A DNA stretch of 38,624 bases from Bacteroidota bacterium (GTDB lineage Bacteria > Bacteroidota > Bacteroidia > Chitinophagales > Saprospiraceae): contig JAGWYI010000002.1 in assembly GCA_018969455.1 (NCBI GenBank), positions 1-38,624 of the forward strand. Reading direction: 5' to 3'. Made by a program: the position numbers and the translations under genes. Of this stretch, positions 17,760-32,615 are shown piece after piece (positions within the stretch are counted from its first letter, which is position 1; each line of letters starts with the position of its first letter). The notes under the pieces are model-generated. The model was not told where the DNA came from. It did no database searches and was given only the letters and a program-made list of their open reading frames with translations.

Positions 17760-19259
17760 TTATTGTTTTACCATTTTCACAACTGCGGCTGCACCATTTA
17801 CGATGATGCGGCTGTAGTACACACCAGCCTGATTTGTTTCAAAACGGAACGTATGGATTCCGGCGTCCATGCGGGCTTGCGCAAGCACCTGAACCAAACG
17901 GCCCAATTGGTCATACACTTCGATGCGCACTTGTGCCTGTTCTTTCAGTTCAAAGCTAATGTTGGTTTGCTTGTCGAAAGGGTTTGGAACCACTTGAATA
18001 TGTTGGCCTAAAACAGCTGGATCATTTACCGCAACCGATGGCAGCGCATAATCGATCAACAATTTGCAAGCACCCGCAGGTAATCCATCGTACGACTCTG
18101 CTTCGCGCAATCCTTTACCGGCGAGGGTAAACACCATGGCATTTCCGGAAGCCCAATCGGCCCGGTCGACCAGTTTTTGAACCAAGCGTGCGATGTTACT
18201 GCTGCGCTGGTCGGCGCCGTTCTGACCAACCACGGTCCAGGAAGCCGCTGGAATTGACCAATAAACAGAATCTGTTAAAGTTGGGCGGGAAGAAATATCA
18301 AACGGAGTAGTGGTAAAGGAAAGCGGCGTTACGCTGTTTTGGGCTTTGATCCAAACAGCACAGGGATCGGTGTTTTTGTTGGTATTATCTACCTGAAATT
18401 GCAGGCGCGCATTGGAAATTTTGGCCCCTTTTGGAATGGCCAGGTTGGCAAAACGCACGCCAACCAATTGAGGATCTACGTTATTGGCGGTTTCGCAGCC
18501 CAACTCCAGGTCAGAGCTGCCTGCATCGAGGTCGCCCACCGTTTTGGTTTGGTTGGCGCCTGGCAAATATTCTTCCAGATCGTCTTCAGCTGCGCTCACT
18601 TGAGCGGTTACACTGCTGCTCGCTGGCTCGAAATTGATGATCAGTTTGCAAGCGCCGGTAGCACTTCCGTCAAAAGATTCTGCTTCACGCAAGCCCGAGC
18701 CATACAGGAAAAACGCCATGGCATTGCCGGATACCCAGCCATCGCGGGTTACCAGAGATTGTACCAGTTTGGAAATATCGGTGCTGCGTTGATCGGCATC
18801 ATGGGCGCCCACGGTAGTCCAGGAACCGGCCGGAATGGCCCAGTACACAGAGTCTTGCAATTTTGGGCGTTGAGAAAGGTTGAAAGGCGTAGGATCAAAC
18901 GTTACCGGATTGTCGCTATCCTGTGCTTTGATCCAAAGGTTGCAGGGGTCGGTGTTTTTATTGGTGTTGTCTACCTCAAATTGCAGGTAAGCAGAGGCAA
19001 TCCAGGCATTTTTGGGAATGTTTACCCCGGTAAAACGCAGGCCAACCAATTGAGGGTCAACATTACCTGCGGTTTCATTACCCAATTCCAGGTCGGAACT
19101 GCCAGCATCGATTCCACCCACGGTTTTGGTTTGAGTTGGGCCTGGCAAGTATTCTTCCAGGTCGTCGTTGATGGTATTTACTTGAACGGTAATGGTTTGC
19201 TGAGCGGAAAGGCAAAAGCACCAAACCATAGAAAGGGACAAAAACAATCCTTTTTTCAT
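17760..19259 (-). CDS. T9SS-secreted protein with two tandem ~194-residue beta domains
   Basis: This 499-residue secreted protein has a signal peptide (1-20) and two copies of a repeated domain at about 21-210 and 215-405. A T9SS type A sorting domain covers about 415-499 (VVPNPFDKQTNISFEL, IEVYDQLGRLV, AGVYYSRIIVNG). Each repeat carries DDLEEYLPG, AGSSDLELG, DPQLVG.RF, FQVDNT.KNTDPC, SWT.VG...ADQRS and LREAESYDG. The pattern looks like DNRLRE-type or carbohydrate-binding beta-sandwich domains in bacterial surface proteins, but the exact family and ligand are unknown to me. The sequence is nearly a shortened version of the next gene, without its phosphatase part. T9SS would export it and leave it on the surface or release it. 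Confidence 0.85.
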   Translation of the reverse strand: MKKGLFLSLSMVWCFCLSAQQTITVQVNTINDDLEEYLPGPTQTKTVGGIDAGSSDLELGNETAGNVDPQLVGLRFTGVNIPKNAWIASAYLQFEVDNTNKNTDPCNLWIKAQDSDNPVTFDPTPFNLSQRPKLQDSVYWAIPAGSWTTVGAHDADQRSTDISKLVQSLVTRDGWVSGNAMAFFLYGSGLREAESFDGSATGACKLIINFEPASSSVTAQVSAAEDDLEEYLPGANQTKTVGDLDAGSSDLELGCETANNVDPQLVGVRFANLAIPKGAKISNARLQFQVDNTNKNTDPCAVWIKAQNSVTPLSFTTTPFDISSRPTLTDSVYWSIPAASWTVVGQNGADQRSSNIARLVQKLVDRADWASGNAMVFTLAGKGLREAESYDGLPAGACKLLIDYALPSVAVNDPAVLGQHIQVVPNPFDKQTNISFELKEQAQVRIEVYDQLGRLVQVLAQARMDAGIHTFRFETNQAGVYYSRIIVNGAAAVVKMVKQ

Positions 19260-19454: not shown

Positions 19455-22400
19455 CTATTGTTTTACCATTTTTACCACTGCTGCGGCGCCGTTTACGATC
19501 ACGCGGGCATAATAAACACCTGCCTGATCGGCTTCGAAGCGGAAAACCTGCGTACCTGCATCAAAACGGGCTTGTGCGAGTACTTGAACCAGGCGGCCCA
19601 GTTGATCATAAATTTCAATGCGCACCTGTGCTTGTTCGAGCAGTTCAAAAGCGATGTTGGTTTGATCGCCAAACGGATTCGGGTAAACCTGAATTTGCTG
19701 TCCTAATACGGCAGGATCATTTACTGAAACCTGAGGCCCCAGGTAATCGCGGCGGGATATTGCAAGTGCGACGCTGCGGTTTATTTTTTCTGAACGGCCG
19801 CTGATATCTGTTTGTAAGGTGTTGTTTCCGGGATTTGGTCCCTGAATGGACACAAACATATACCGATAATCGGGTGTGAAAGTCATCCCTGTGGGTTCAG
19901 AACTGAGCGGAGTTTGCATGAAAATCTCCACTTTGGGATCTGCTTGAGTATGGTTTGGACGTACAATCCAGATGTGATTGCGACCGCCATCTTGAAGTAC
20001 CCACAAGTTGCCGCGGTCGTCGAAAGTCAGGTTGTCATTGCCCACACCCCAATCTTCCGAAACCACTTCATTCCCACTGGTAACGCGGTAGGTTTTACCC
20101 CCTACATAAGTTTCGAAACCGCTTACAGTGCTTCCATTGTCGGCAAAGGTGTAAACGCGGCTTGCGCCCTTTACGGCAAAATAGACATGTCCGGTAAGCG
20201 GATTAATCTCTACATCTTCGATACCGGCAAAAGTGGTACCATTGGCTGCGGCGAATGTTTTGGTGGCATTTTGTTCGGCTTTGGTGGTATTAGGAACTTG
20301 CACCCAGGTACCGGTTGACCCGGTTGGTTCAAAACCGGCAAATGGCTGGTTGAGTTTCAACACATACAATTTTCCGCTAGACAAGTTGTCTTGCTGATCG
20401 GCGACAAATTTGTAGATGCTGCCATTGGGCTCATCTTCCCCCTGGTAAACTGTTTTCCGGTCGGATGCCACCACCACATTTTCGTGGCTCATGCGTCCCA
20501 TTGCCCACAATTTTTGCGGACCGTTGCCATAACTGCGCACCTGGCGGGTGAGCGGGTCAATTTCAACGTTCCAACCCAAATCGATGTAACCATCGTTGTT
20601 GGCGTCGGTATTGGAAGTGGTTTCCTCGCAAGTAATAACGGTTCCCCAAGGGGTAACGGTACCAGAACAGTTGCGCTGGGTACCTCCTACCGGTGCGAAA
20701 TTTACAGGGCCGGAGCTATCTACTTTCCAAAGTCCTGTTGCATTGTTGAAGTGCAAGTCTAAAACAGATACAGCGCCAACCGATTCTTCATGGTTGATCG
20801 ACAAATGTCCGAGGCGGCTGTTGGTTCCGTTTGCGGGAACATAACCGGTAAAGTCGAAAGTGGGGGGCAGTTTTCCGGAAGTAAGTGTATACGGCTCGTT
20901 TTCAAAGGCAACGTATTGGAAAACGTGAGAGGCATTTGGAATTTCAAATGTATCGCGTTGTTCGCGTGGTATCAGGGAGGTAAAGCACCCGATGTGTTTG
21001 TCGTTGGGATCCACACAACCCAGATCGCTTGGGTTGCTCACGCCAACCGGCGTATTCAAAGACAGATCGAAAACGAGGTCGGGACTATTGGGGGCAACTT
21101 GGTGCACTTCAGCAGCAATAATATTTACATCATTAACAAACAATGACTTAGGCACATCGAATGTAAAATAAGCATATTCGCGGTTTCCACTCACTTCTGC
21201 ATTAGCCAGGGTGTTGTTGGTGATTGCGCCAGCATTCATGTTACGGCGCAGCACTTCGGTTCCATTTACATAAACGACAACGCCGTCATCTGCGCGCACC
21301 TGCATTTCCACTTGAGCGGGCAAGGAAGCGACATCGGCAATTCGGATGCGCTTTCTGAAATAGGTAGTGAGGTATTTATTGTTGGCGTTGGGACCAAAAC
21401 CGATGGTGGTGTTTAATTCGTTGAGATTGTACCCCAATGGCCCCGGGCCGAATGCCCATTGTGCATCATTGAAAGTCAAAGCGTTCCAGTCGGCAGCAGG
21501 AGAAGTTCCATTATCGAGGTAAGCCCAGCTTCCCTTTTTATTCAATGGGTAGTTGGTTGTTGGGTTACCTGGCTGTGGCGTATCGTTGGAAACGTATTCT
21601 ACGATTAATTTACAAGCGCCAGCAGGCAAGCCATCATAAGATTCTGCTTCGCGCAAGCCTTTACCGGCGAGGGTAAACACCATGGCATTACCCGGCGCCC
21701 AGTTGGGGCGATTAACGAGCGCCTGAACCAGGGGAGCGATGTTGTTGCTGCGTTGGTCGGCGCCAGCAGCGCCAATTACCGTCCATGATCCATTGGGAAT
21801 TGCCCAGAAAATGGAATCTTTCAGGGTTGGGCGACTGGAGATGTTAAAAGGAGTCAATTCGAAGGAGGGAGGATTGTCGGCATCCTGTGCTTTTACCCAA
21901 ACTTCGCAGGGGTCGGTATTTTTAGTGGTATTATCTACCTGAAACTGAAGGTATGCATTTGTGATGGCTGCGTTTTTGGGAATATTCAAATTGGCAAAGC
22001 GCACTCCAACCAATTGAGGGTCAACGTTATTGGCTGTTTCGGTGCCCAGTTCGAGGTCGGAGCTGCCGGCATCCAGGGTACCTACCGTTTTGGTTTGGTT
22101 AGTGCCCGGCAAATATTCTTCCAGGTCATCTTCGGCGGCGCTTACCTGTGCGGTGAGGGTATTGGTAGGCACGTAATCGATCAAAAGTTTACATGCGCCG
22201 GATGGTAAACCATCGTATGATTCCGCTTCGCGCAAGCCTTTACCGGCCAGTGTAAACACCATGGCGCTGCCGGCAGCCCAATCGGGGCGGTTGACCAGTG
22301 TTTGTACCAGACGGGCAATATTGGTACTGCGTTGATCTGCGCCATTTTGTCCGATTACATTCCAGGATCCATCAGGGATAGACCAGTAAACAGAATCGGG

Positions 22401-23381
22401 CACAGTTGGGCGGGAAGAAATGTCGAAAGGAGTAAGGGTAAAAGAGGCGGGAGAAACGCTGTTTTGGGCTTTAATCCAAACGGCACAGGGATCGGTATTT
22501 TTATTGGTATTATCTACCTGAAATTGCAGGTGTGCATTTACAATTTTAGCGCCTTTGGGAATGTCCAGATTTGCAAAACGGACGCCAACCAATTGAGGGT
22601 CAATGTTTCCGGCAGTTTCATTACCCAATTCGAGGTCGGAGCTGCCGGCATCGAGGGTACCCACGGTTTTGGTTTGATTGGTTCCGGGCAGATACTCTTC
22701 CAAATCGTCTTCTGCTGCGCCAACCTGAGCCGTTAAGCTATTGGTTGGAACAAAATTAATGATCAATTTGCAAGCGCCTGTGGCAGTGCCGTCATAAGAT
22801 TCTGCTTCCCGCAAGCCCGTTCCCTGAATGAAAAATGCCATGGCATTTCCGGAGGCCCAGCCATCGCGGTTTACCAGAGCCTGAACCAAACGGGCAATAT
22901 TCGCGCTGCGTTGATCGGGGCCATTGGCGCCAATGGTGCTCCATGAACCGCTTGGAACAGACCAGTAAATTGAATCGGGCAGTGTAGGGCGTTTGGACAG
23001 GTTAAAAGGCGCAATTTCAAAGGTAAGCGGGTTATCGCTGTCTTGCGCTTTGATCCATAAATTACAAGGATCGGTGTTTTTGCTGGTATTGTCAACCTCA
23101 AACTGCAGGTAAGCCGACAAAATCCAGGCATTTTTAGGAATGTTCACATCGGTAAAACGAACGCCGACCAATTGCGGATCGATATTGCCTGCGGTTTCTG
23201 TCCCCAATTCAAGGTCGGAGCTACCTGCATCAATGGCGCCAACGGTTTTGGTTTGGTTTGGACCAGGGAGATATTCCTCCAAATCGTCATTAATGGTATT
23301 TACCTGAACGGTAATGCTTTGTTGTGCACAAAGGCTCAATCCCCAGGCTAAACTGAGGAGTATGGGTAGAAATTTTTTCAT
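19455..23381 (-). CDS. T9SS-secreted PhoX-type phosphatase fused to three repeated beta domains
   Basis: The 1308-residue protein has a signal peptide (1-20) and three ~194-residue repeats at about 22-210, 214-403 and 408-596. A galactose-binding-like jelly roll follows at about 612-778 (GSWAYLDNG, FRKRIRI, DDGVVVYVNG). A PhoX/DUF839 region lies at about 795-1215, and a T9SS type A sorting domain at about 1225-1308. PhoX enzymes are Ca/Fe-dependent phosphomonoesterases. Candidate ligands seen here are NHEES (863-867), TCEETTS (917-923), HE at 966-967, YQGEDEP (979-985), GIEDVEIN (1053-1060) and DNLTFDDRGNLW. It could release phosphate at the cell surface, with the repeats anchoring it to glycans or other ligands; that role is inferred. 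It lies 110 bp downstream of smc and upstream of its shorter paralogue, whose sorting domain is nearly identical. Confidence 0.85.
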   Translation of the reverse strand: MKKFLPILLSLAWGLSLCAQQSITVQVNTINDDLEEYLPGPNQTKTVGAIDAGSSDLELGTETAGNIDPQLVGVRFTDVNIPKNAWILSAYLQFEVDNTSKNTDPCNLWIKAQDSDNPLTFEIAPFNLSKRPTLPDSIYWSVPSGSWSTIGANGPDQRSANIARLVQALVNRDGWASGNAMAFFIQGTGLREAESYDGTATGACKLIINFVPTNSLTAQVGAAEDDLEEYLPGTNQTKTVGTLDAGSSDLELGNETAGNIDPQLVGVRFANLDIPKGAKIVNAHLQFQVDNTNKNTDPCAVWIKAQNSVSPASFTLTPFDISSRPTVPDSVYWSIPDGSWNVIGQNGADQRSTNIARLVQTLVNRPDWAAGSAMVFTLAGKGLREAESYDGLPSGACKLLIDYVPTNTLTAQVSAAEDDLEEYLPGTNQTKTVGTLDAGSSDLELGTETANNVDPQLVGVRFANLNIPKNAAITNAYLQFQVDNTTKNTDPCEVWVKAQDADNPPSFELTPFNISSRPTLKDSIFWAIPNGSWTVIGAAGADQRSNNIAPLVQALVNRPNWAPGNAMVFTLAGKGLREAESYDGLPAGACKLIVEYVSNDTPQPGNPTTNYPLNKKGSWAYLDNGTSPAADWNALTFNDAQWAFGPGPLGYNLNELNTTIGFGPNANNKYLTTYFRKRIRIADVASLPAQVEMQVRADDGVVVYVNGTEVLRRNMNAGAITNNTLANAEVSGNREYAYFTFDVPKSLFVNDVNIIAAEVHQVAPNSPDLVFDLSLNTPVGVSNPSDLGCVDPNDKHIGCFTSLIPREQRDTFEIPNASHVFQYVAFENEPYTLTSGKLPPTFDFTGYVPANGTNSRLGHLSINHEESVGAVSVLDLHFNNATGLWKVDSSGPVNFAPVGGTQRNCSGTVTPWGTVITCEETTSNTDANNDGYIDLGWNVEIDPLTRQVRSYGNGPQKLWAMGRMSHENVVVASDRKTVYQGEDEPNGSIYKFVADQQDNLSSGKLYVLKLNQPFAGFEPTGSTGTWVQVPNTTKAEQNATKTFAAANGTTFAGIEDVEINPLTGHVYFAVKGASRVYTFADNGSTVSGFETYVGGKTYRVTSGNEVVSEDWGVGNDNLTFDDRGNLWVLQDGGRNHIWIVRPNHTQADPKVEIFMQTPLSSEPTGMTFTPDYRYMFVSIQGPNPGNNTLQTDISGRSEKINRSVALAISRRDYLGPQVSVNDPAVLGQQIQVYPNPFGDQTNIAFELLEQAQVRIEIYDQLGRLVQVLAQARFDAGTQVFRFEADQAGVYYARVIVNGAAAVVKMVKQ
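21594..23318 (-). repeat. Three tandem ~582-bp coding repeats
   Basis: Three copies of a ~194-residue module lie head to tail, each with DDLEEYLPG, SSDLELG, NTDPC and LREAESYDG at matching positions. Two further copies lie in the neighbouring gene at about 18045-19200. The sharp conservation points to recent duplication or continuing exchange between copies. Confidence 0.85.
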
Positions 23382-27152: not shown

Positions 27153-30100
27153 TTATCGGATCAAGGTCGAATTTCCGTGTAAAATTTCTGTTTGTCCATC
27201 CAGATAGATTGCTTCTACCACCCATACGTACACACCCGGATCGCAGGCTTTGCCCCGGAAAGCGCCGTCCCAGCCAAAGGCACCGTCATTGGTTGTAAAA
27301 TTATCTGCCTGGTACACCAATTCACCCCAACGATCGTATAGACGGAAATTTTTAATTTTCGCATTGTTTTGTCCGTGTACCACAAGTCGGTCATTTTCGC
27401 CATCGCTGTTGGGGGTGAAAGCCGTGGGGACGTAAATACGCCGTGGGCGCTCTACTGAAATTCGAATACGATCCGTTCCTTCACATCCATTCGCATCAAC
27501 AACTTGTATTTTAAACCAATGTTGTTGCATCAAATTTTGCACCTGTGGATCGGGGCAGGTAAAGCAGGAAAGCCAGGTCGTGTCGCTGAAATTCCAGGCA
27601 AATTGATAAGGCTCAATACCATGTAATACCAGGGCATTCAATTGCGTATCTTGGCCGATTTCGATGCTGAAATCGGGACCAAGTTCAACTTCTACCTGAT
27701 CGGGCTGCTGTACCCGGATGGTATCAAGCGTGGCAATACATCCATTTTTGTCTATGATTTGCGGCTGATACAATCCGGCTGCGATGCCAATTTGCACGGC
27801 GGCTCCAATAAACTTCTGATTTCCTGTTGAATACCGGTAAGGTGGTGTGCCGCCGGCGCCGGAAAAGCTCATTTTTCCGTCTCTTCCACCAAAACAAGAT
27901 GGGTCTTCTTTTTGCACCTGTCCATATACGGAAGTATCGGGTTGAGGAATCATTAAATTGCCTGCATACACGCAGCCATTCTTGTCGGTAACATTCAACC
28001 AAACGGGTCCGGCAGCTTGCAATTGAATGCTGTCGTTGCTTGAGCCTGTTGACCAGCTAAAAGTATACGGCGGAACGCCCCCTTTGGCTTTGGCACGCGC
28101 GCCACCATCGGAACCGCCAAAACATTTGACAGGAATTGCCGATAAGTCGGCACGAAGGGCATCAGGCTCCGAAATACTTACCGTGGCAGTTTTTGGACAG
28201 CCTTTTGCATCGGTCACGGTAACAAAATATATGCCCGCTTTCATCCGTAATCCGATGGAATCGTTGGGGGCAGGCACGCCAGCACTCCAAAAGTATTGGT
28301 AAGGTGCGGTTCCACCACGACCTACCGCGCGGGCGCTTCCGCTTGCATTCCCCTGACAATCAACATTTTGAACATCTAAAATTGACACCTCAACAGGTTC
28401 CGGATTTCCCAGTGTGACCGATGCGGAACTTGTACAGCCTTGAGCGTCGGTGAGGGTCACGGTGTATTGCCCGAGCGCACTCAATCCGGTCGCCACAGGC
28501 TTATTTTGGGGTGGTTGGGTGCTCCAGGCATAAGTAAACAATGCGGGATCGGCGGTATTTGCTCCATAGAAAATGGCACTCAGACGGGCTTTGCCATCAT
28601 TGCCATTGTAGCAATTTGGATTTTCGTAGGCGCCCACGGCAAACAATTGATCTTGTTGCGTTACAATGGTTTGGGCGCTTTGGGAACACAAATTGGCATC
28701 GGTAACCGTGAGGGTATACACGCCGGTTGGCAGCCCAACTGCCTGTTGGGTGGTTTGCGCAGTGCCGTTGATGTCCCATAGATAAGTGAATGGAGGCGTT
28801 CCGCCAAAAACGGCGCCCCGGGCTTTACCGTCGGCGGCATTAAAACAAATGGTGTCGGCAAACTCGGGCAATTGGAGCACCAGCTCGGCTGCTGGTTCGG
28901 TTACGGGTTCAATAATGGTTCGGGTGCACGCTTTTGCGTCGGTGATGGTTGCGCGGTAAACACCTGCAAACAGACCAGAAATTTGGGTATTTTGATCAGA
29001 AAACCCATTCGGGCCGGTCCATTGAATGGAATATCCGGGAGTTCCCCCGTAAAGATCGATCAAAATAGAGCCGCTTGCCTGGCCCTTACACCGTACATTT
29101 TGGGTTGCCACGTTGATGGTAATTGCCGGAGGCTGGCCAATGGTAGCGGTTGCCGATTGAGTACAATTGTTGGCATCGGTAAGGGTAAGCGTGTAAACAC
29201 CGGCAGTTTGATTGTTTAAATTTTGTGTCGTGGCCCCATTGCTCCATTTATAGGAATATGGCGAGAGTCCGCCGCTTGCGGTCACCGAAATTTTTCCGTT
29301 GGCATCGGCAAAACAGCTGGCATCACTTACAAGTGTTTGTATTTGAATGGCTTGCGGTTGGGCTAAGCTTGCGCTTTGAGCGAGCGTACAGCCTTTGGCA
29401 TCAGTGATGGTTACGGTGTAGGATCCGGCAGACAAATTGGCGGCGGTTGCGCCGGTTTGTTGACCGGCATCACTCCATTTATAGGTGTAAGGACTGGTTC
29501 CACCAGCCGCTTGTACCGTTAAACTTCCTGAATTGCCCTGATTACAATCTACATTTACAGGTGTAATGGTTGCAGAAATGGCGTTGGGCGCAGGAACAAG
29601 TACAGATTGAACTGCAGTGCAGCCATTGGCATCCTTAACTGTTACGGTGTAATTTTGTGCAGCCAAATTGATTGCAGTTGCCGTAAGTTGAGGGGGCGTT
29701 GTATTCCAGGAATAGGTAAAAGCGCCAGTACCGCCGCTCGCCAAAGCAGCAGCGCTCCCATTTTGATCACCCAGGCAGGCAACACCAATAGCATTGACGG
29801 TAACAGAAATAGCGGGCGCCTGGCCGACACTCACAAATGCAGTGGTTGCACAGCCGTTGGCATCGGAGAGGGTGATGGTATAATTGCCAGCGGGCAAATT
29901 GTTGTTGATTGGGCCGTTGACATTGTTACTCCAGGCAAAGCCATAGGGCGGAACACCGCCGGATCCGGAAGCGGAAGCGCTTCCGCCAGGTAAACCAAAG
30001 CAAGGCGCCAGCGAAGACAAAGCGCTTACAGAAAGACTTGTTGGCTGGGTAAGGGTTGCCGAGGCCGTTGTTGTACAATTGTTTACATCGGTAATGGTCA

Positions 30101-32615
30101 CCGTATAAGTTCCTGCTGTCAAATTGGAGGCAGAAATGCCGGTTTGAGTCGGGCTGGTACTCCAAGTGTAAGTGTATGCAGCAGTTCCTCCGTTTGGAAC
30201 GGCCGTTAATTTTCCGTTGTCACCACCGAAGCAACTTACCGCCTGGACTGGTGTGGCTGTACCGGTCAATTGTTGTATTTCACCCACATTTACCGGTATT
30301 ACATTGGAACATCCCGTTCCATCGGTAATGGTTACGGTGTAAGTGCCCTGAGAGAGGTTTTGAAACAAACCCGTACTGTTGGTTTGAGTTCCCAATAAAA
30401 ATGCATAAGGCGGGTTGACCCCATCGGGTGTAAGTTGAATGCGGCCGTTGCTTCCTCCAAAACAGGAAACATCGGTCACGCTGGTGCTGGAAGCGGGTTT
30501 CTGGCAGCACACACCTGTACCGATTTGTGCGGTACAGGTATAGGCCGGATTAAAGCCGCGTACCTGCAGGGTAACTGGCGCACTATTAGACAATCCGGAA
30601 ATGGTATGCATGAGATTACCGGAAGCAGGAATCCAGCCTGCGCCATTCACATTAACCTCATATCCTGTGGCATTTGCGACGCTATTCCAGGAGAAAGTGG
30701 CATTTCCAGATCCAAAACTGGCACAATCAACGGTTGGAGCCGCAATTTCGGGTAAAATATCTATGCGCACGCTGTCGCTCACCACACAACCATATGAATC
30801 GGTTGCATACAACTTGTAGTTGGTAGAAGTACTTGGATGCAAGGTCGTTACCGGACATGTTGGACAATTTACACCAACAATGGGCGTCCATTGATAATCT
30901 ACCTTGTAATTGGGCTCAAATGTGATGGTCCAGTCGAGCAAGTTTCCTACATTACCCAAACCATCGTCGCGCAATTGTAGCTGCCAAACTCCATTCGCCG
31001 GGTAATTGCCATCCCAAAGATCGCTCCATTCCCCTTCTGGCAAAAAGTCTCCCGTGAAAGGTGCTGCACTGGATGGGGCAACAGGGCCCGGGAAATTGAT
31101 CTTTTTGGTTGCACTAGGCTTGAAACAGGTATTTGTATAGTTGTCGCCGCTGCCGCCGTTGTCGGTCGATAGCTCCAGATACTGCCCGCCAGGGGAAATC
31201 AGGTACATGTCTATGTCATCATCCCAACTATGGGCAATGTTCAGGCAAACCGAGCGGATGGAATTGGCGGTAAGAATTGCCGGTGTAACACCCGAAACGG
31301 TAATGGGCGAAAATACTGGTCCGAACAAGAACGGGATTTGATAATCCTGAAAATTGCTAAAAGAGGGCGGCGGCGGGTAAACGATTGGCAAGGTACCGTT
31401 GACATTCAAGGCCGGTGCATTTTGACAAAGCGCTGTATCCGGGCGCAAAGACGGTGGAAGCAATGCATTGTCTTTTATAAAAACGACAATTGTATCGCGC
31501 GTACATATATCGCGCTGAAAATCAAAGGCGAATGACTCCAAAGGCTCCGAAATGTTGTCCTCAATCGCATTGATGGGAATGGATAATTCGGTTTGGCCGG
31601 CGGGAATAATCAAATTATTGGGGATATTGGGGAAATCAACTCCATTAATTGCGGTCCCAAAAAACGAACAATCGATCTTAAAATCGGTGGTTTGGGGGTT
31701 GGGTATTCGGAAAGTCACCGACGCAGCGGCACAGCCTTCCACAATTTTACCATCGGGGCTTGCTGTTACCAATTCGGCCCGTAAGGTTCCGGTACCGAAA
31801 CTCTTGGCCTCAAGAAAAACGCCTGAATCCCATGCGGAATCACCCACATCGGCAATTGCCAGGGTAATGGTGTATTGTTGGCAAGGAACCACCACGGCTT
31901 CTGCTGTAAATACTTTGGTAAAACCGTCATAAACAGGTTGCTTGTTGCTAGCCAAATTATCGTTGTAAAAAATGGCATTTAAAGGGTCACAACCTGGTAC
32001 TGAAGGGTTGGAAGGATGTAAATTATTGATGGCTACCGGAAGATTGGTTCCCGGAATTAGGGCGATGTTTTTGGGAGTAGCATAACCGGGCCCCTGTATA
32101 AAGAACCCGAAAATGTCGTTGTACTGGGTACATGCAAATTCCGGGTATTCTTCCGAAGCGAAAACATAGCGAAAACGAAGGGTATCCGAAACTGGTATAA
32201 AGGTAATTTTATACACTGCCACATCGTTCAAAGTTCCCGTAGTCACGGCCTTCAAGTTGGGATCGGTTGCAGTGCTGCCGTTGCCGTTGGATGCAAAAAT
32301 CATCCCGTCCTCTTCAGAACCGTAGTTGTTACCCTGGGTTTGAGCACGCCCTGAAGTCATGATAATGCCGCGATCAAGTCCGAGTACCTGTTTCCCTCCG
32401 GTAAAATAACCCACTGCCTCAGGTTTCCCGTTGAAAGTGATGTTGGTTACCTCTACCCCATTGCCCAATAAGATGTTGGAAATCAAATTTTGGGGCGTAA
32501 TAGGCGACACAGTGGCATCAGTGACTTGCATCTGAGCCAGTGCCAATTGGGTGAAAAACAAGAAAAAGATGCAGGGTAAAATTTGTTTTGGGGAATGGCA
32601 ATGTGTGTAGTTCAT
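27153..32615 (-). CDS. SprB-repeat surface adhesin with choice-of-anchor L and T9SS type B sorting domain
   Basis: This 1820-residue secreted protein has a signal peptide (1-28, ending LALAQ) and a choice-of-anchor L domain (about 30-275: FNGKPEAVGYFTGG, RGIIMTSG, FRYVFASEEYPEF, NDIFGFFIQGPG). A Calx-beta-like segment lies at about 280-385. A proprotein-convertase P-type domain follows (about 440-570: HSWDDDIDMYLISPGG, WQLQLRDDGLGNVG), then a fibronectin-like segment and twelve SprB-type repeats. The C-terminal gliding-motility-associated domain (T9SS type B sorting; FTPNSDGENDRL, YDRWGELVYQ, CDPGVYVWVVEA) ends the protein. SprB and relatives are surface adhesins moved along the cell by the gliding machinery. 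T9SS export and a role in attachment, gliding or aggregation are likely; no gliding motor genes are in the window. It is divergent from sppA. Confidence 0.9.
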   Translation of the reverse strand: MNYTHCHSPKQILPCIFFLFFTQLALAQMQVTDATVSPITPQNLISNILLGNGVEVTNITFNGKPEAVGYFTGGKQVLGLDRGIIMTSGRAQTQGNNYGSEEDGMIFASNGNGSTATDPNLKAVTTGTLNDVAVYKITFIPVSDTLRFRYVFASEEYPEFACTQYNDIFGFFIQGPGYATPKNIALIPGTNLPVAINNLHPSNPSVPGCDPLNAIFYNDNLASNKQPVYDGFTKVFTAEAVVVPCQQYTITLAIADVGDSAWDSGVFLEAKSFGTGTLRAELVTASPDGKIVEGCAAASVTFRIPNPQTTDFKIDCSFFGTAINGVDFPNIPNNLIIPAGQTELSIPINAIEDNISEPLESFAFDFQRDICTRDTIVVFIKDNALLPPSLRPDTALCQNAPALNVNGTLPIVYPPPPSFSNFQDYQIPFLFGPVFSPITVSGVTPAILTANSIRSVCLNIAHSWDDDIDMYLISPGGQYLELSTDNGGSGDNYTNTCFKPSATKKINFPGPVAPSSAAPFTGDFLPEGEWSDLWDGNYPANGVWQLQLRDDGLGNVGNLLDWTITFEPNYKVDYQWTPIVGVNCPTCPVTTLHPSTSTNYKLYATDSYGCVVSDSVRIDILPEIAAPTVDCASFGSGNATFSWNSVANATGYEVNVNGAGWIPASGNLMHTISGLSNSAPVTLQVRGFNPAYTCTAQIGTGVCCQKPASSTSVTDVSCFGGSNGRIQLTPDGVNPPYAFLLGTQTNSTGLFQNLSQGTYTVTITDGTGCSNVIPVNVGEIQQLTGTATPVQAVSCFGGDNGKLTAVPNGGTAAYTYTWSTSPTQTGISASNLTAGTYTVTITDVNNCTTTASATLTQPTSLSVSALSSLAPCFGLPGGSASASGSGGVPPYGFAWSNNVNGPINNNLPAGNYTITLSDANGCATTAFVSVGQAPAISVTVNAIGVACLGDQNGSAAALASGGTGAFTYSWNTTPPQLTATAINLAAQNYTVTVKDANGCTAVQSVLVPAPNAISATITPVNVDCNQGNSGSLTVQAAGGTSPYTYKWSDAGQQTGATAANLSAGSYTVTITDAKGCTLAQSASLAQPQAIQIQTLVSDASCFADANGKISVTASGGLSPYSYKWSNGATTQNLNNQTAGVYTLTLTDANNCTQSATATIGQPPAITINVATQNVRCKGQASGSILIDLYGGTPGYSIQWTGPNGFSDQNTQISGLFAGVYRATITDAKACTRTIIEPVTEPAAELVLQLPEFADTICFNAADGKARGAVFGGTPPFTYLWDINGTAQTTQQAVGLPTGVYTLTVTDANLCSQSAQTIVTQQDQLFAVGAYENPNCYNGNDGKARLSAIFYGANTADPALFTYAWSTQPPQNKPVATGLSALGQYTVTLTDAQGCTSSASVTLGNPEPVEVSILDVQNVDCQGNASGSARAVGRGGTAPYQYFWSAGVPAPNDSIGLRMKAGIYFVTVTDAKGCPKTATVSISEPDALRADLSAIPVKCFGGSDGGARAKAKGGVPPYTFSWSTGSSNDSIQLQAAGPVWLNVTDKNGCVYAGNLMIPQPDTSVYGQVQKEDPSCFGGRDGKMSFSGAGGTPPYRYSTGNQKFIGAAVQIGIAAGLYQPQIIDKNGCIATLDTIRVQQPDQVEVELGPDFSIEIGQDTQLNALVLHGIEPYQFAWNFSDTTWLSCFTCPDPQVQNLMQQHWFKIQVVDANGCEGTDRIRISVERPRRIYVPTAFTPNSDGENDRLVVHGQNNAKIKNFRLYDRWGELVYQADNFTTNDGAFGWDGAFRGKACDPGVYVWVVEAIYLDGQTEILHGNSTLIR
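27690..30475 (-). repeat. Twelve SprB-type coding repeats
   Basis: Twelve units of about 75-90 residues each begin with a Cys-containing motif (SCFGGSNG, SCFGGDNG, PCFGLPGG, ACLGDQNG, DCNQGNSG, SCFADANG, RCKGQASG, ICFNAADG, NCYNGNDG, DCQGNASG, KCFGGSDG, SCFGGRDG). Each passes through GG..PY.Y.WS and closes with G.YTVT.TDA.GC. A thirteenth, degenerate unit precedes the sorting domain. The copies are diverged, so this is an old array. Boundaries are approximate. Confidence 0.85.

Follow-up and report, generated by a model that had tools for sequence, protein, structure and literature searches.

A PhoX-type phosphatase domain on a modular protein with a type IX sorting tail in Saprospiraceae, and a proposed shift of the active-site charge in its Bacteroidota branch

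PhoX ranks among the main phosphatases of the environment, and the export route usually described for it is Tat. We asked whether a PhoX domain that is built into a large protein with a Sec-type signal, repeated modules and a type IX secretion system (T9SS) tail is still likely to act as a phosphatase, how it would leave the cell, and what its additional domains would do there. The gene in question lies at positions 19455-23381 (minus strand) of the window, the 38,624-nucleotide stretch of Saprospiraceae DNA analysed here. It is a real open reading frame with an ATG start, and its 1308-aa product consists, in this order, of a Sec signal, three tandem modules of ~191 residues, a beta-sandwich, the PhoX domain and a T9SS type A tail (Table 1). 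The original prediction had described just such a PhoX enzyme with three modules, a jelly roll and a T9SS tail in a 1308-residue protein, and the reading frame and domain profiles agree with it. The tail scored 44 bits with TIGR04183 (cut-off 23, NCBIfam) and 2e-8 with the Pfam Por_Secre_tail family. The beta-sandwich is all-beta by prediction, with no Pfam or NCBIfam family above cut-off and no PDB match by sequence. An assembly artefact was considered and rejected: genome G007, of the same genus, carries a 1308-aa counterpart with the same layout, 63-78% identical per domain and likewise adjoining smc, and the fusion is therefore not an artefact.

Table 1. Positions of the features in the window.
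Feature	Coordinates	Strand	Basis
499-aa paralogue: signal peptide, two modules, T9SS tail, no enzyme	17760..19259	-	profiles, comparison
Sec-type signal peptide, ~aa 1-19 (MKKFLPILLSLAWGLSLCA), no twin-arginine motif	23325..23381	-	sequence reading; putative cleavage site
Module 1, aa 22-212	22746..23318	-	repeat comparison; AlphaFold model pLDDT 96.8
Module 2, aa 215-405	22167..22739	-	repeat comparison
Module 3, aa 409-597	21591..22157	-	repeat comparison
Beta-sandwich ("jelly roll"), aa 606-786	21024..21566	-	AlphaFold DSSP; precedes PhoX in most relatives as well
PhoX catalytic domain, aa 785-1214	19740..21029	-	Pfam; PDB sequence and fold matches
C905 = PhoX C179	20667..20669	-	alignment
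E967 = PhoX E273	20481..20483	-	alignment
D983 = PhoX D292	20433..20435	-	alignment
G1053 at PhoX R385	20223..20225	-	alignment
E1055 = PhoX E387	20217..20219	-	alignment
K1071 at PhoX T403, proposed R385 replacement	20169..20171	-	alignment, census
D1116 = PhoX D479	20034..20036	-	alignment
T9SS type A sorting domain, aa 1232-1308	19458..19688	-	TIGR04183 and PF18962

Membership of the PhoX family is firm, as profile, PDB sequence matches and fold are concordant. The Pfam profile PF05787 covers aa 893-1182 (E=1.4e-43; 150.3 bits against a cut-off of 24), and phmmer against the PDB matched 3ZWU and 4AMF at 1e-17. The AlphaFold model holding the beta-sandwich and PhoX (pLDDT 92.6) has 3ZWU (2.7e-22) and 4A9V (7.3e-22) as its top PDB folds, the next propeller following at 4e-8. 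No other PhoX domain is encoded in the window's genome. The protein shares with PhoX of Pseudomonas fluorescens (3ZWU, 4A9V) the propeller fold and residues C179, E193, E194, E273, D292, E387 and D479, whereas it differs in having Gly for R385, Lys at 403, a shorter domain, a Sec signal, a T9SS tail and four extra domains. The numbering is that of 3ZWU as printed in the alignments (the cysteine of NC..G.TPW is 179 and the RPE motif 385-387). It agrees with that of R385 and D292, the residues named for PhoX in PMC11098088. Judged by the refuting condition set in the original prediction, a loss of PhoX ligands, one active-site residue, R385, is gone, and C179 and the conserved acids are in place. 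C179, E193, E194, E273 and D292 are kept throughout the Bacteroidota census and the added phyla; E387 is absent from one row only, and D479 from one incomplete row. We take C179, E273, D292, E387 and D479 as the probable cysteine and acids of the metal site; PhoX enzymes are characterised by two Fe, three Ca and phosphomonoesterase activity.

What, then, does the loss of R385 mean? We aligned 124 PhoX sequences from Bacteroidota, Pseudomonadota, Actinomycetota, Deinococcota, Spirochaetota, Thermomicrobiota and haloarchaea. Exactly one basic residue is found at 385 or 403 in 123 of them (R385 in 23, K385 in 9, K403 in 91), the residue pairs at 385/403 being R/T 23, K/S 8, K/Q 1, G/K 85, N/K 3, S/K 2, A/K 1 and G/Q 1. 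R385 is therefore not universal in the family. In a tree built without columns 385 and 403, at least five changes occur among the R385, K385 and K403 states, and three between K403 and the rest; these counts carry more weight than the row counts because many rows are close kin. One of the G/K cases, an actinobacterium (L159), sits on a long branch with an unsure placement. By the predicted secondary structure of the PhoX model, strands 449-454 and 461-465 are consecutive, the Gly being residue 448 of the model and the Lys residue 466, an arrangement like that of a single hairpin within a propeller blade. Positions 385 and 403 should therefore be close to each other. Since the window's protein has K403, we infer that its active site is compensated rather than dead. 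The K385 form, a third solution to the same charge, occurs in haloarchaea, Pseudomonadota and Pseudonocardia plasmids (L157, L158, L160, L161, L196-L199, L202). A lysine in place of R385 (K432, which may correspond to position 385 or to 403) is also known from Psip1 of picocyanobacteria, which has a PhoX-like site but, according to its authors, no overall sequence identity with PhoX (PMC11098088). The sole census PhoX without a basic residue at either position (G, Q), at L047:323-2242, is possibly inactive. A conjugative Escherichia coli plasmid carries a classical R385 PhoX gene (L204:1063-3042) next to an IS2 transposase.

The export route is the other point at which the protein departs from the usual description. 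Its N-terminus lacks the RR motif of Tat export, a route that is usual for PhoX but does not define the family. Sec and Tat calls were made by reading N-termini by eye, as a pattern search for twin arginines also picked up Sec signals such as MKRKLL. The window's genome encodes the T9SS sortase PorU. It encodes TatC as well, so a lack of Tat does not account for the Sec signal. Around T9SS-type PhoX genes the order MauG-like di-haem protein, PhoX, leucine-rich repeat (LRR) protein is conserved (L119:3451-8555 and many other loci). Within the window's branch a MauG-like gene is present in 63 of 97 loci and an LRR gene in 75 of 97, nearly always directly downstream; with close relatives thinned, the counts are 23 and 32 of 49. 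A second Sec-type PhoX group, that of L036, which itself has R385, shows a MauG-like gene in 7 of 8 loci. By contrast, none of 10 loci with Tat-type PhoX (RRxFL signals, same taxonomic order) has a MauG-like gene within ~5 kb; Fisher's test of the window's branch against this Tat set gave p ~0.005, relatedness being ignored. The window's own PhoX gene adjoins neither a MauG-like nor an LRR gene, and its genome holds, of these, short di-haem peroxidases only, with no LRR homologue found. The MauG-PhoX link has already been reported in Flavobacterium, with the suggestion of a cofactor need of PhoX (PMC8812569), and loading of PhoX with iron in the cytoplasm before Tat export is a published speculation (PMC4223295). 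New here are the spread of the MauG link and its contrast with Tat-exported PhoX. A paper that names both PhoX and type IX secretion does not connect the two.

An experimental comparison comes from Flavobacterium johnsoniae. Its phoX-like gene fjoh_2478 is strongly induced by phosphate depletion and its product has been described as a lipoprotein (PMC8115612). Deletion of the gene lowers the phosphomonoesterase activity induced by phosphate starvation, and expression in Pseudomonas putida gave an inactive enzyme (PMC8812569), so that the branch may need partners. Judging by the gene context of its congeners, Fjoh_2478 probably falls in the window's branch, since in Flavobacterium members of that branch MauG-like and phoX genes follow the same order. 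Members from Chryseobacterium and Flavobacterium resemble the window's protein in that PhoX carries a T9SS-type tail in relatives, with a MauG-like gene upstream. Their one or two beta-sandwiches are not accompanied by modules, of which the window's protein has three, and they adjoin MauG-like and LRR genes whereas the window's gene has neither.

The window's PhoX is a member of a large and little-described Bacteroidota branch. Scanning bacterial and archaeal genomes brought up at least 445 relatives, and the best 80 of these belong to Saprospiraceae, Flavobacteriales, Chitinophagales, Cytophagales and other Bacteroidota; one close relative (L066) is a Saprospiraceae metagenome bin. In a census of 99 PhoX proteins from the loci examined, some genomes being counted twice, the number of modules combined with PhoX ranges from 0 to 3 and that of beta-sandwiches from 0 to 2. 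Modular PhoX bearing a T9SS-type tail is therefore widespread in Bacteroidota, and the view of the fused build as exceptional has to be given up, PhoX with such a tail being common there with or without modules. Giant single open reading frames (~2260-2700 aa) of Winogradskyella, Mesonia and Chitinophaga (L083:1-7584, L084:1-7824, L088:1312-8082) join PhoX to a PhoD-like phosphatase, the two phosphatases being unrelated; for L088 the PhoD part has a direct score, and for L083 and L084 coordinates place it in the same reading frame.

We consider it probable that the protein is a Bacteroidota-type PhoX alkaline phosphomonoesterase, exported by Sec and then by T9SS, that frees phosphate from organic phosphomonoesters outside the cell. 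It would cross the inner membrane via Sec and the outer membrane via the type IX secretion system, and the predicted enzyme would then release phosphate on the surface of the cell or in the surrounding medium. This supposes that the PhoX domain is active and that K1071, on the neighbouring strand, takes over the role of R385. A different outcome is conceivable, in which the loss of R385 ended phosphate binding and the protein became a surface adhesin with a vestigial propeller, or took on another activity. The Gly at 385 fits such a loss, as do the replacement of the QHPGE motif by QGPN, without its H, in the window (the H is also lost in some relatives) and the inactivity of the F. johnsoniae enzyme in a foreign host (PMC8812569). 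We nevertheless regard it as improbable: C179 and the conserved acids persist throughout the census, K403 is present in 91 of the 92 cases of a small residue at 385 and on more than one branch, and the F. johnsoniae knockout does lower activity (PMC8812569).

As for the modules, those of the window have diverged further than the "near-identical" of the original prediction, modules 2 and 3 being 69% and 71% identical to module 1, at a repeat spacing of 579 nt. The window's genome has five in total, three in the PhoX protein and two in the adjacent 499-aa paralogue, which the original prediction had missed and whose two modules and tail are 79-82% identical to their counterparts in the PhoX protein (modules 1 and 3 and the tail). 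In G007 the matching stretch (L037) lacks this second, module-only gene. At 27153-32615 (minus strand) the window also encodes an 1820-aa protein; it combines a choice-of-anchor L domain and a P-domain with eleven SprB repeats and ends in a T9SS type B tail. Modules are sparse, being found in 11 of 396 genomes of the phylum, and elsewhere they sit on purple-acid-type metallophosphoesterases, subtilases and one CotH-type protein. By sequence, they gave no match above chance in Pfam or the PDB. The comparison with carbohydrate-binding modules (CBM) that the original prediction had proposed came out in its favour, the nearest solved folds being glycan-binding: the first three matches of the module 1 model are 8WAB, a chondroitin-sulfate CBM (two chains; E 7.9e-6, TM 0.61), and 7VBO, a CBM96 (E 9.9e-6, TM 0.51), followed by BMP9 prodomains at 7.5e-4. 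The predicted fold and the size of ~180-190 residues are alike, and we take the module fold as CBM-like; the modules are nonetheless only 15-16% identical to 7VBO and 8WAB and stay under the Pfam and NCBIfam cut-offs. Indeed, the CBM96 profile matched 2 of 46 module members (best E 0.007, under cut-off), the DNRLRE profile reached 15-21 bits against a cut-off of 34 (NCBIfam), and profile-profile comparison with three CBM96 domains was not significant, the CBM96 alignment being very thin. Lysines and an arginine mediate the alginate binding of CBM96 (PMC9971899) whereas the modules are acidic, a contrast of overall charge and not residue by residue, and the CBM96 ligand residues cannot be transferred to them.

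On the strength of the predicted fold, polymer binding by the modules is plausible, and we propose that they and the beta-sandwich would anchor the enzyme to a glycan or matrix surface rather than to its phosphorus substrate, the 499-aa neighbour being an enzyme-free protein for the same surface. They may also be ligand-free spacers or stalks for surface display, a serious contender that we place somewhat below an even chance. Their number varies from 0 to 3 with many relatives having none, they are acidic throughout, CBM96 gave no match above cut-off, and their partners are as diverse as subtilases, purple-acid-type phosphatases and a CotH-type protein, all of which would suit a stalk. A mere stalk accords less well with the two glycan-binding modules that head the fold matches, with the invariant polar residues S33, D35, E37, Q49, R110 and R170, and with a neighbour that consists of modules alone plus an export signal and a tail. 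The original prediction had suggested that the modules may bind a polymer and concentrate the enzyme on organic phosphorus sources. On this line they would bind the phosphorus substrate itself, such as DNA, teichoic acid or a phosphorylated polysaccharide, and their presence on two unrelated phosphatase folds, PhoX and the purple-acid-type metallophosphoesterases, speaks for it. However, all 46 aligned modules are net negative (-7.5 to -12.5, about -10 each, in the window), which argues against binding of a polyanion or DNA through a basic groove, and subtilases carry modules too; we therefore think substrate binding very unlikely.

Returning to the anchored, active PhoX that we favour, two points of interest stand out in its branch, the swap of the charge between 385 and 403 and export by way of Sec and T9SS. 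We speculate that they are connected: the active-site charge may move from 385 to 403 on the adjacent strand, the swap would mark a large branch of Sec-exported and surface-displayed PhoX, and many members may be matured by a MauG-like partner rather than loaded with iron before Tat export, the window's group doing even without the partner. Taken as a whole, this reading is possible rather than probable. To our knowledge, P. putida has no T9SS. The Sec/T9SS route may thus be part of the reason that no activity of the F. johnsoniae enzyme was seen in that host (PMC8812569). Altogether, our results describe a widespread Bacteroidota branch of PhoX in which R385 is absent, Lys stands at 403 and export would proceed through Sec and T9SS, so that it can now be tested whether the moved charge keeps PhoX active and how PhoX acquires its iron outside the Tat route.
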